From an uncultured Sphingomonadales bacterium (GTDB lineage Bacteria; Pseudomonadota; Alphaproteobacteria; Sphingomonadales; Sphingomonadaceae): a stretch of DNA of 64,000 nucleotides. The notes below the pieces were generated by a model that was not told the origin of the DNA, did not search any database, and saw nothing but the letters and a program-made list of their open reading frames with translations. Where the stretch lies: positions 248,001 through 312,000 of the forward strand of contig CAIMDB010000028.1 in NCBI GenBank assembly GCA_903839675.1. The letters run 5' to 3'. The position numbers were made by a program, and so were the translations under genes. Shown one piece after another: positions 16,876-21,382 of the stretch (positions are counted from its first letter, which is position 1; the number at the start of each line of letters is the position of its first letter).

Positions 16876-17790
16876 CTAATCCTTTGACCGGTCGGGCTGG
16901 CGCACCATGAGGAGTGCCAGCCCGATCAGCCCTGCGCCGATCCAGTCGGGCAAGGCCAGCATTTCTCCATAGCTGATCCAGCCCATCGTGGCTGAGACCA
17001 CTGGCTGCGTGAGCAGCGCCAGCCCAAAAACGAGCGGCGTGACACGCCCAAGGGCATACACCATCATCCCCTGACCGATTAGCTGGCTGACCACCGCCAG
17101 TGCGATGACCGGCGTCCAATTCCGCGGCATGATCGTTTCGCCGAGCGCCAGCGCGATCAACAGCAGCGGCAGGATGGTTGCAACCGTGGACCAGGCCAGC
17201 AACGTCCAGCTTTGCAACTGCGCGCGCGCCTGCGCGACGACGACCAGATAGGCCGTGTAGAACAGGCCGGCAGCAAGGCAGAGCATATCGCCGAGCAGGT
17301 TCTGCGTGCTGAGTTCTGCGGACCGACCCAGCAACAGGACAGTGCCGATGGTCGCGACAGCAAAGGCCGTCCCTTCCCGGCGCGTCGGCCAGGCGCGCGC
17401 CACAAGGAAACCCCAGACAGGGAAAAACAGGCTCGCCGCATTGGCAAAGAGCGTGGCGTTGGCCATCTTGGTTTTGAGAATGCCAATATGCCAGGCGGCC
17501 AGGTCAACGGCGAAGAACAGGCCCGACAACAGCATCGTCCAATAGAGCGCGTTGCTTGGCAGGGTCAGCGGCTGGCGGCGATAGGCGGCGATCAGGAAGA
17601 GCACAGGTGCTGCCAGCGCTAAGCGCCACATGGCCGAGGCGCTTGGGCCAACATCGGCCATACGCACGAGCCATGGCCCGAAGGCGAGAGCAAAGTTTCC
17701 AATCAGCAACGCCGCGATGACAGCGGCCCGGCTGCCAACTTCTTGCCCCCCAAGAGATTGTTGCTGTTGCGTGGACCCCATCGCCCTCAT
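16876..17790 (-). CDS. DMT-superfamily (EamA) permease
   Basis: 304 residues forming two EamA repeats with about ten membrane helices; recognisable are AMWRLALAAPVLFLIAAYRR in the first repeat and PLVFGLALLTQPVVSATMGWISYGE in the second. EamA proteins export amino acids, metabolites or other small molecules across the inner membrane; the substrate cannot be told. Ends next to the stop of the PuuD-like gene (converging, no gap) and diverges from the old yellow enzyme gene over 38 bp. Confidence 0.82.
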   Translation of the reverse strand: MRAMGSTQQQQSLGGQEVGSRAAVIAALLIGNFALAFGPWLVRMADVGPSASAMWRLALAAPVLFLIAAYRRQPLTLPSNALYWTMLLSGLFFAVDLAAWHIGILKTKMANATLFANAASLFFPVWGFLVARAWPTRREGTAFAVATIGTVLLLGRSAELSTQNLLGDMLCLAAGLFYTAYLVVVAQARAQLQSWTLLAWSTVATILPLLLIALALGETIMPRNWTPVIALAVVSQLIGQGMMVYALGRVTPLVFGLALLTQPVVSATMGWISYGEMLALPDWIGAGLIGLALLMVRQPDRSKD

Positions 17791-17828
17791 ATCCGTTAGC
17801 CGAACTCACAAAGCAACTAGGGGCCCAC

Positions 17829-18902
17829 ATGCCGACACTTTTCGATCCGATTGATCTTGGGGCCATTCATTGCCCGAACCGCATCCTGATGGCGCCACTG
17901 ACCCGCGGCCGCGCCGACCCCGGCCATATCCCCAATGATCTGATGCGCCTCTATTATGAGCAGCGCGCGTCGGCGGGCCTCATCATCTCGGAAGCCACAG
18001 GCATTTCGCAGGAAGGCCTTGGCTGGCCATCCGCACCGGGCATCTGGACCGATGCGCAGACCGAAGGCTGGAAGCCTGTGACAGAGGCCGTGCACAAGGC
18101 CGATGGTCGCATCATCCTTCAGCTGTGGCACATGGGTCGTCTGGTCCACTCCAGCTATAACAACGGCCCCGGCGTCTCGTCTTCGGCCACAACTGGTCCG
18201 GGCCACGCCTATACCAAGACGGGCAAGCAGCCGCTGGAAGAAGCCCGCGCCTTGCGCCTTGATGAAATCCCCCGCCTGATCGGCGATTATGTGAAGGCCG
18301 CTGAAAACGCGAAGAAGGCGGGCTTTGACGGCGTCCAGATCCACAGCGCGAACGGCTATCTGCTCGACCAGTTTTTGCGCGACAACAGCAATTTCCGTGA
18401 CGATGCCTATGGCGGCTCCATTGAAAACCGAATCCGCCTGACGACCGAAGTCACAGCGGCTCTGTGCGATGTGTGGGGCGCGGACCGCGTCTCTGTCCGC
18501 CTGTCCCCCAATGGCGATTCACAAGGCGCGGATGACAGCAACCCCGAAGGCCTGTTCACGGCTGCCGCGGCCGCATTACAGAAGCTCAACATCGGCTTTC
18601 TGGAACTGCGCGAACCCGGCCCTGACGGCACCTTCGGGCGGACCGATGTGCCCAAGCAGTCCCCCGCGATCCGCAAAGTCTTCACCAACAAGCTGGTGCT
18701 CAATTCCGACCTGACAGCCGAAGACGGAAACGCCCTGATCGCTTCGGGGCAGGCGGACGCTGTCAGCTATGGCCGTCCCTATATCTCCAACCCGGATCTT
18801 GCTGAGCGTATCCGCGATGGCAAGGCATGGACCGAGACCAACATGGCAACTTGGTACACACCGGGCCTAGAAGGCTATACGGATTATCCGGTGGCTGGGT
18901 GA
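17829..18902 (+). CDS. Alkene reductase, old yellow enzyme family (NemA-like)
   Basis: 357 residues of an FMN-dependent TIM-barrel ene-reductase. The start PTLFDPIDLGAIHCPNRILMAPLTRGRA, the substrate-binding GFDGVQIHSANGYLLDQFLRD and the tail VSYGRPYISNPDLAERI are diagnostic. It reduces activated alkenes, nitro-esters or quinones with NAD(P)H in the cytoplasm; a role in detoxifying electrophiles is typical. It stands alone, followed by a G/C-rich palindrome at 18961-18982. Confidence 0.92.
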   Translation: MPTLFDPIDLGAIHCPNRILMAPLTRGRADPGHIPNDLMRLYYEQRASAGLIISEATGISQEGLGWPSAPGIWTDAQTEGWKPVTEAVHKADGRIILQLWHMGRLVHSSYNNGPGVSSSATTGPGHAYTKTGKQPLEEARALRLDEIPRLIGDYVKAAENAKKAGFDGVQIHSANGYLLDQFLRDNSNFRDDAYGGSIENRIRLTTEVTAALCDVWGADRVSVRLSPNGDSQGADDSNPEGLFTAAAAALQKLNIGFLELREPGPDGTFGRTDVPKQSPAIRKVFTNKLVLNSDLTAEDGNALIASGQADAVSYGRPYISNPDLAERIRDGKAWTETNMATWYTPGLEGYTDYPVAG

Positions 18903-19010: not shown

Positions 19011-19430
19011 TCAACCGAACTGAGACTTCAACTCCAGCAACGCAATCGCTGCCTTGGCCGCTTCGCCGCCCTTGTCCTTCTGCGTCGGATCCGCGCGGAC
19101 GAGGGCCTGCTGCTCATTCTCGACAGTCAAAATGCCATTACCGATGGCAATCCCGTCCATGGTCAGCGCCATAATGCCGCGTGCGCTTTCGCCCGCGACG
19201 ATTTCAAAATGATAGGTCTCACCGCGAATGACGACGCCAATGGCGACAAAGCCGTCATAGCGCCCGCTTTCCGCGGCCAGCGCAATCGCACCGGGGATTT
19301 CAAGCGCGCCGGGGACAGTGATGACGTCGGCCTTATGGCCTTCGTCTTCGAGCGCCGCCTTTGCCCCTTCGACCAGCATGTCGTTGAGGTGATCATAAAA
19401 ACGGGCCTCGACGATCAGAAACTTTGCCAT
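19011..19430 (-). CDS. ribH: 6,7-dimethyl-8-ribityllumazine synthase
   Basis: 139 residues, the usual length. [33 protein letters not shown], the [14 protein letters not shown] block with the catalytic His, and [13 protein letters not shown] are diagnostic. It joins the ribityl-pyrimidinedione with dihydroxybutanone phosphate, the step before riboflavin synthase. ATG at 19430 chosen because the family starts there; a longer frame exists into the preceding gene. It begins 4 nt after the stop of the HTH-RibB fusion gene, with which it is surely co-transcribed. Confidence 0.95.
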
Positions 19431-19434
19431 GGAC

Positions 19435-20712
19435 TTATGCCTCCGGAATGGGGCGCTCGCCCACGATGTTGATGCCATAGCCTTCAATGCCAACGACATT
19501 GCGGTGGGCGTTGGTCAGAAGAATCATGTCGTGAATGCCAAGATCGGCGAGGATCTGCGCGCCAATGCCATAGCTGCGCAAATCCATTTCCGGCGCCTTG
19601 CCAGAGGCCGCGCTAATTTCACGCGTGAGCGAGTCCGCGTCTCCGGGCATCAGCAGCACGATCACACCTGCGCCAGCCGTTCCAATTTCCGCCATAGCGC
19701 GCTGCAGGGTCCGCTTGCGCGGTCCGGGTGCACCCAACACATCAGAGAAGATCGAGATGCCGTGCATGCGCACCAGCGTCGGCTCCCCTTCGACCACGCG
19801 GCCCTTTTGCAGGACGATGTTGACCGATCCATCGACCTTGTTGCGATAGGTCTTGGCCGTCCATTCCCCGCCATAATCCGAGACGAAAGGCGCTTCGGAC
19901 ACGCATTCGACCAGATGGTCATGCTTGCGCCGATATTCGATGAGGTCACGGATCGTGCCCATCTTCAAATTATGCATCCGCGCGAAGGAGACGAGGTCAT
20001 CCATGCGCGCCATGGTGCCGTCATCCTTCATGATCTCGCAGATCACGCCCGACGGGTTAAGCCCGGCCAGACGCGAAATGTCGACGGCTGCTTCGGTATG
20101 GCCCGCGCGCACCAACACGCCGCCATCGCGGGCGATCAGCGGGAAGACATGGCCAGGCGTCACAATATCATCGCGGCCCTTGGACGAATCGATGGCGACA
20201 GACACGGTGCGGGCACGGTCGCCTGCTGAAATGCCGGTCGTCACGCCTTCGCGTGCTTCGATAGAGGTGGTGAACGCTGTTTCGTGGCGCGTGCCGTTGG
20301 CGCGGCTCATCAGTTCAAGGCCGAGGTCCTCAACGCGCTTCTTGGTCAGCGTGAGGCAGACGAGCCCACGGCCATGCGTGGCCATGAAGTTGATCGCATC
20401 GGGCGTTGCCATTTGCGCAGGGATCACAAGATCGCCTTCATTCTCACGGTCTTCATCATCGACGAGGATGAACATGCGGCCATTGCGCGCTTCCTCAATG
20501 ATTTCCTCAATGGGGACGAGCGCGGGGCTATCGTCGCTGGCGAAGAGATAGGCCTCCAGCTTGCGCAGCGTCTCTGCCGTCGGGTTCCAGTCGGGCTGGT
20601 CCAGATCGCGCAGCGTGTTGGCATGGAGGCCGGCTGCACGGGCAAGGCCGGAACGGGATAAGCCACCGTCGGTGACGAGGCTGCGGAGCTTTTCGATGAG
20701 TTGTGTAGACAT
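19435..20712 (-). CDS. ribB: HTH / 3,4-dihydroxy-2-butanone-4-phosphate synthase / degenerate GTP cyclohydrolase II fusion
   Basis: 425 residues in three parts. Residues 1-55 form a helix-turn-helix ([22 protein letters not shown]). Residues 65-270 are an intact Rib[23 protein letters not shown] and [24 protein letters not shown], making dihydroxybutanone phosphate from ribulose 5-phosphate. Residues 275-425 resemble GTP cyclohydrolase II but lack its zinc cysteines (the CLTGD...RCDC region reads [14 protein letters not shown]), so RibA activity is not expected and a separate RibA must exist. The DNA-binding part and a palindrome upstream suggest autoregulation. Operon order is ribD-ribE-ribB-ribH. 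Confidence 0.9.
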
Positions 20713-20723
20713 GAATCCTGAAA

Positions 20724-20741
20724 ATCACATCATAGTGTGAT
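20724..20741. promoter_or_regulatory. Palindrome upstream of the HTH-RibB gene
   Basis: ATCACA-TCATAG-TGTGAT is a perfect 6+6 dyad 12-29 nt before the ribB start codon. On the coding strand it contains a TATGAT hexamer that could serve as a -10 element, so a bound protein would block transcription. A second dyad, TCAATG-N10-CATTGA (20744-20765), lies directly upstream. No FMN riboswitch sequence is seen. Binding by the HTH domain of RibB is inferred. Confidence 0.5.
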
Positions 20742-20767
20742 CGTCAATGATTCATTTCACATTGAGA

Positions 20768-21382
20768 TTATCGCGCCGCGCTCAAACGTTCCTGCATCCG
20801 CGCCAAATAGCGGGCGAGGACATCAATCTCGACATTGACCTGCTGGCCCTCCGCCAGATCGCCCAGCGCTGTAACGTCCCAAGTGTGCGGAATGATGTTG
20901 AGGCCAAAAGTTGCGGTGCCGTCCGCATTGTCCGCAACGCTGTTGACCGTCAACGAGACGCCGTCGACGGTTACGGAGCCCTTCGTCGCGATATAAGGCG
21001 CAATCTCTGCACCCACCGTCACGGAGACGCGATGCGAATCGCCTTCGGGCGCGATAGCAGCAATGGTGCCGACGCCATCAACATGGCCGGTCACGATATG
21101 CCCACCCAATTCATCGCCGATCTTGAGCGCGCGTTCCAGATTGAGGCGGCGGCCCTGCGCCCACATCGCATTCGATGTTTTGGACGCTGTTTCCGCCGAG
21201 GCGTCGATGGCGAACCAGTCTGCACCCTTGTCCACAACAGTGAGGCACACGCCCGAACAGGCGATAGAGGCACCGAGATCCACGCCCGACATGTCATAGC
21301 CGCACTGAATGATCAGCCGCAGATCCCCGCGCTGTTCTGCCTTGGTGATTGTGCCAACGTCGGTGATGATACCTGTGAACAT
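20768..21382 (-). CDS. ribE: Riboflavin synthase alpha subunit
   Basis: 204 residues with the duplicated lumazine-binding fold: MFTGIITDVGTI at the start, SIACSGVCLTVVD in the first half and VTVDGVSLTVNSV plus GHVDGVG in the second. It converts two lumazine molecules to riboflavin and a pyrimidine. ATG at 21382 is the family start; the longer frame upstream overlaps ribD. Spacing to ribD is 13 nt, and 55 nt to the ribB fusion, where a palindromic candidate operator is found. Confidence 0.94.
   Translation of the reverse strand: MFTGIITDVGTITKAEQRGDLRLIIQCGYDMSGVDLGASIACSGVCLTVVDKGADWFAIDASAETASKTSNAMWAQGRRLNLERALKIGDELGGHIVTGHVDGVGTIAAIAPEGDSHRVSVTVGAEIAPYIATKGSVTVDGVSLTVNSVADNADGTATFGLNIIPHTWDVTALGDLAEGQQVNVEIDVLARYLARMQERLSAAR

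Follow-up and report, generated by a model that had tools for sequence, protein, structure and literature searches.

The ribB gene of this uncultured sphingomonad encodes a DHBP synthase with a probable helix-turn-helix (HTH) domain at its N-terminus, and since a palindrome stands directly in front of the gene, the question arises which protein reads this palindrome and to what effect. The original prediction took it for a repressor operator, with the HTH of the protein that it precedes as its most economical reader. Within the window, by which we mean the whole 64-kb stretch of DNA that was analysed, the riboflavin genes lie on the minus strand in the order ribD - ribE - ribB - ribH. The ribB fusion gene (19435..20712, minus strand; 425 aa) joins the HTH to a DHBP synthase (aa 69-260) and a GTP-cyclohydrolase-II-like domain (aa 271-420) from which the zinc cysteines and the C-x10-C-x-C motif are absent (window 19453-19902, minus strand), and the same genome encodes a separate RibA that has this motif (G000:C32:178371-178862). 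As such, the protein resembles a RibBA-type enzyme with a degenerate GTP cyclohydrolase II domain, which we take to be RibBX-like, in its DHBP synthase, its GCHII-like domain without zinc cysteines and the presence of a separate RibA, and differs from it by the additional N-terminal HTH and a candidate operator of its own. The gene ribE (riboflavin synthase alpha; 20768..21382, minus strand) ends upstream, leaving 55 nt between its stop and the ribB ATG, and ribH (lumazine synthase; 19011..19427, minus strand, start codon inferred) follows downstream. Just past ribH (window 16876-18902), there is an EamA-type transporter gene and, divergent from it, a gene that by eye looks like one for an old yellow enzyme. 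Apart from two tRNAs, no known RNA family was matched in the 64-kb window.

Both dyads of the original prediction lie within the 55-nt gap. The first, ATCACA-TCATAG-TGTGAT, is present as claimed at 20724-20741, an 18-bp dyad 12-29 nt before the ribB ATG, and is kept in relatives. The second, TCAATG-N10-CATTGA, does exist at 20744-20765, but is not kept as a dyad, as a sequence logo of related genes shows there an ATGTGA half-site only. As bare dyads neither palindrome is unusual, with 25 perfect dyads of the form 6-N6-6 and 21 of the form 6-N10-6 in the window against a uniform expectation of about 16. It is because of its conservation before HTH-ribB genes that the first dyad stands above chance, and the exact pattern TCACA-N6-TGTGA occurs a single time in the organism's own 2.9 Mb genome.

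For comparison between genes, an operator score was defined as the number of matches to TCACAT-N4-ATGTGA over the 12 specified positions of this 16-bp site. The proximal operator of the window, TCACACTATGATGTGA on the coding strand (20725..20740, minus strand), scores 11/12. Among 128 fused HTH-ribB genes, namely those with upstream DNA fetched from an estimated 240 fused genomes in a 298-genome sample (profile A2 matches 254 of the 298, about 15 of them weakly), 127 carry a site of at least 10/12 and the remaining gene reaches 9/12; the full split is 12/12 in 70 genes, 11 in 44, 10 in 13 and 9 in one. In this set, L068 was dropped since the gene is cut by the contig end, and L057 was indexed by hand. 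None of 48 distinct HTH-less ribB genes reaches 10/12, the best being one gene with 9/12 (up to 266 or 316 bases were scanned for unfused genes, 146 for fused ones), and shuffled sequences reached 10/12 in 14 of 2560 cases. The 48 genes stem from 22 and 28 loci with two genomes in common; in two cases (G003, G033) the gene is a second ribB besides a fused one in the same genome, and of the 33 HTH-less family genomes with a match, the scan omitted G134 and some extra copies. In a further set of ribB loci from named genomes, which partly overlap the other set, all 79 carry a site of at least 10/12 (79 of 80 loci; L320, with too little upstream DNA, was omitted). Free variation of the dyad between relatives, the outcome by which the original prediction would have fallen, is thus ruled out for the first dyad.

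The link between site and HTH also holds across genomes. A perfect site was found in 22 of 60 relatives (own genome included), 21 of which have one each, 20 at ribB and one in a prophage (G029), and a strong HTH match lies inside ribB in 30 relatives, again one each; beyond these, G033 has a free HTH match in surroundings that resemble a prophage, and G014 has a weak match. In the 24 order-level genomes, neither a perfect site nor the HTH profile inside the ribB frame was detected. On a RibB-core tree (81 rows; L062 counted as fused, L068 dropped), each of the 80 labelled rows has either both HTH and site (50 rows) or neither (30 rows), over five changes between the fused and the unfused state for which gain and loss are not separable. 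Independent pairs on supported branches of this tree agree in four of four cases, which from these alone amounts to p = 0.125.

The remaining relative with perfect sites, G011, has seven of them, two of which lie at ribB. Besides three TCACAT-N4-ATGTGA sites before its ribB, it has extra ones in two other intergenic stretches (L171 at 5173, 5265 and 5298; L172 at 4055, 4088 and 4190), one of which precedes a lon-like gene as judged by translation. The regulon of G011 may thus be wider, or a repeat may be spreading there.

One could imagine that a regulator encoded elsewhere reads the site while the HTH of RibB serves another role, all the more as the genome is expected to encode further XRE proteins. 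We consider this unlikely, since site and HTH come and go together over the five changes on the RibB tree, since HTHs of the same family in phages use the same operator shape (see below), and since the site has nearly no other targets. Within the organism's own genome the exact site has no second copy, and by their coordinates none of 35 one-mismatch sites lies by ribD, ribH or ribA. A wider riboflavin regulon, for which the original prediction had proposed to look upstream of other riboflavin genes, is thus not seen there. Exact and one-mismatch sites together number 36 in this genome compared to 7 for a reversed-pattern control, a control that has other dinucleotides. A regulator of the CRP/FNR type, which the original prediction had named as an alternative, fails on the orientation of the half-sites: CRP/FNR proteins recognize TGTGA-N6-TCACA, whereas the order here is TCACA-N6-TGTGA, and the gap from the distal to the proximal half is 16-17 nt and not 6.

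The place of the site relative to promoter elements gives a first indication of what a bound protein would do. A logo of 103 of the 128 genes (proximal site of at least 10/12, distance to ATG of 24-34), counted from the operator start, shows a conserved TTG(A)C at -7..-3, the palindrome at 0-15 and TA at 16-17. In the window, this corresponds to a -35-like TTGACG (20742..20747, minus strand) directly ahead of the operator (-7..-2) and to a weak, putative -10-like TTTTCA (20719..20724, minus strand) 17 bp after it, of which the first two bases alone are conserved, being TA in most relatives. The operator would hence fill the 17-bp gap between the TTGAC of the -35 and the TA of the -10. TATGAT, which had been proposed as the -10, is indeed a coding-strand sequence, yet it coincides with the variable centre of the operator and is not conserved as a -10. 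Given the -35/-10-like spacing of TTGAC and TA, transcription is predicted to begin at the A of the ribB ATG (20712, minus strand), which would make the message leaderless. Counted from where the operator begins, 53 of the 128 genes have their ATG at +28 and 102 have it at +27 to +30, and Shine-Dalgarno-like words upstream of ribB are no commoner than in shuffled sequences (10 of 80, i.e., 12.5%, vs 15.2%), which is in keeping with a leaderless start. Against such a start, a plain sigma-70 scan returned no promoter on the ribB strand of the window, because the -10 there is poor.

Upstream of the -35, the distal half-site ATGTGA (20757..20762, minus strand; logo positions -22..-17) appears to be the remnant of a second operator about 32 bp away. 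Of the 57 genes with two sites of at least 9/12, 42 have them 31-33 bp apart, and in the window the upstream site is reduced to its ATGTGA half. With a distal site in this position, RibB might also bind as an activator. This seems very improbable to us, as the proximal site is the better conserved of the two and a protein bound at its place, between -35 and -10, normally blocks the polymerase, and as the phage counterparts are placed alike.

Being located in the gap behind ribE, the dyad could alternatively act as an RNA hairpin that hides the ribB start in messages reading through from ribE. Some folding evidence points in this direction: the RNA of the window region folds better than its shuffles (z -2.3), of which 7 in 200 do equally well; sequences with their native flanks gain 1.73 kcal/mol (se 0.46) over those with swapped flanks and are lower in 50 of 80 cases, with four folding controls between -0.51 and +0.29; and weak covariation is seen at two pairs beside the site (z 3.6 and 2.5). 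Against this stands the observation that the arms conserve letters and not pairing. The inner ACA/TGT is invariant in all 128 genes, and deviations at the next pair occur independently in the two arms, with 3 double deviations compared to 3.2 expected. Moreover, four or more extra pairs in a row, and thus clearly longer stems, are found in just 3 of 125 genes, and the presence of the site tracks the HTH. We therefore hold a hairpin to be very unlikely as the function of the dyad; the folding signal of the flanks may reflect a slightly longer operator together with a few true hairpins. Upstream of ribB in L018, L048, L118, L122 and L154, genome-specific complementary flanks extend the operator into a long stem, as would result from hairpin selection or from quasi-palindrome mutation.

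If the site is a DNA operator, the N-terminus of RibB should be a DNA-binding domain. The domain (about aa 1-60; 20533..20712, minus strand; alignments A1 and A3) likely adopts a Cro/CI (XRE) HTH fold. RibB matches HTH_31 at aa 8-60 below the cut-off, and the domain alone reaches 18.8 bits for HTH_31 (cut-off 27) and 17.0 for HTH_3 (cut-off 23), while 35 and 34 of the 41 alignment members match HTH_31 and HTH_3, respectively, at E <= 0.1, a limit other than the per-member cut-offs. A comparison of profile A3 with the PDB yielded an XRE regulator at E 2.6e-4 and HipB, SinR and DdrO at weaker E. In the AlphaFold2 model (pLDDT 80.2, pTM 0.63), helices span residues 2-15, 20-26 and 46-60, and none is assigned at 27-45, the expected place of the recognition helix. 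Foldseek returned nothing at E <= 0.001, the best match being HipB at E 0.15 with a TM of about 0.57, and the matches at E 0.15 and above comprise HipB-, DdrO- and C-protein-like folds. The recognition stretch, HANTLRD in RibB, is kept as H-x-N-[TS]-L-R in the alignments. Among named genomes, the best HTH matches were two Sphingomonadales MAGs and Chakrabartia godavariana.

Relatives of the RibB domain occur as small HTH proteins in prophages and on viral contigs, and inspection of translations placed a divergent CI-type-repressor-like gene next to five of those whose neighbours were read. For 12 of 18 distinct small HTHs a candidate operator of the form 6-N4-6 could be assigned, with 25-31 bp from operator start to ATG in all 12. 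A TTGA or TTGC precedes nine of them, at -7 in seven cases and at -6 in the other two. The choice of the 12 operators from dyad scans was made by eye (wholly so for L209 and L362), a procedure that favours the same-shape reading, and the set leaves out the weaker class-level loci L339-L344 and three phage records. No convincing operator was seen for L175, L207, the near-identical L213-L221 group, L337, L338 and L345. In genome G029, in which RibB lacks the HTH, a prophage carries four TCACAT-type sites in two pairs, 31 bp apart within each, one pair ahead of a cro-like gene and the other ahead of leftward genes. This prophage (L173; G029:C1:209001-228000) is lambda-like, with integrase-, CI-, cro-, terminase- and portal-like genes by inspection, and a stretch identical to it is present in IMG/VR (L205).

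The phage proteins further connect recognition helices with half-sites. A helix of the type xN-T-L is paired with xCACAT-like halves in L173, L209, L210 and L362, and RibB itself combines HANTLRD with TCACAT, whereas DT[TV]L is paired with xCGCAT in five of five cases (L092, L174, L176, L208, L332). The exception to the xN-T-L rule is L093 (HHNTLL with GCATAT), and L174 has a TCACAT half as well. From our point of view, no other observation hints as strongly that this very site is read by the RibB HTH, and the pairing suggests that HTH, promoter and operator travelled together as a module.

Taken together, the separation of fused from unfused genes, the agreement on the tree, the position between -35 and -10 and the phage counterparts support the original prediction of a repressor operator read by the HTH of the following protein, as far as sequence comparison can tell. 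We consider it probable that the palindrome is the operator of a promoter before ribB, that it is read by RibB's own Cro/CI-type HTH and that ribB is negatively autoregulated in a Cro-like manner; binding, repression and the leaderless start are inferred from sequence. DHBP synthase is a dimer. A RibB dimer could hence present two HTHs to TCACAT-N4-ATGTGA, and once bound between -35 and -10 it would keep RNA polymerase off a promoter that is predicted to start its message on or next to the ribB ATG. Binding may be reinforced by the second site, which lies three helical turns upstream and is often degenerate. More RibB would thus mean more operator occupancy and less transcription of ribB, and perhaps of ribH downstream, too.

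An FMN riboswitch (RF00050) would likewise give feedback on riboflavin genes, but none was found in the 64-kb window, nor, with strict filters, above the cut-off in any of 40 family genomes (20 fused, 20 unfused), the best score in the own genome being 25.8 bits compared to a cut-off of 66.2. One of six order-level genomes has one over the cut-off (L364; G058:C1:1171564-1171718). Since fused and unfused family genomes alike lack the riboswitch, the operator module did not simply replace one, and we discarded this explanation.

The module resembles the Cro switch of lambda-like phages in its HTH sequence, in its paired dyad operators and in having an operator between -35 and -10 at a set distance from the ATG, and differs in that the RibB HTH is fused to an enzyme, encoded between ribE and ribH without a divergent CI partner and directed at one gene. 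One could speculate that sphingomonads captured a whole phage switch module before ribB, complete with cro-like gene, early promoter, paired operators and a start at the ATG, the phage Cro becoming the N-terminal domain of RibB and the phage operator a means of feedback control; to us, the chances for and against such a capture look about equal. An HTH tree of 59 rows and 57 columns has long branches and too little resolution to settle either the direction of transfer or a single ribB origin, and the module may alternatively have passed from ribB to prophages of the G029 type. Such prophages, which share the TCACAT specificity, could also cross-talk with riboflavin synthesis of the host.

The nearest precedent for HTH-RibB is archaeal RbkR, an HTH fused to riboflavin kinase that is described as 'bifunctional as gene regulator and enzyme' (PMC8305020). 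Both combine a DNA-binding HTH with an enzyme of the riboflavin pathway and are thought to regulate riboflavin genes. In contrast to RbkR, the sphingomonad protein is bacterial, its enzyme is RibB (DHBP synthase and GCHII-like domain) with no riboflavin kinase domain, its HTH resembles phage Cro-type proteins and its own ribB is the one target seen. Searches by title and abstract, with most subscription papers outside their reach, found no literature on an HTH-RibB fusion or its operator, and the words helix-turn-helix, proteobacteria and fused are absent from the available part of a 2025 review on riboflavin regulation (PMC12542839).

Overall, the present analysis names a candidate protein, operator and promoter for the control of vitamin B2 synthesis in a family without an FMN riboswitch over the cut-off in 40 genomes. 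The phage relatives form a small natural specificity set in which recognition helices are paired with half-sites (DTT with CGCAT, xNT with CACAT). If the proposed autoregulation is true, the sphingomonads would provide a bacterial parallel to archaeal RbkR, and a phage lysis-lysogeny switch would have been turned into metabolic feedback.
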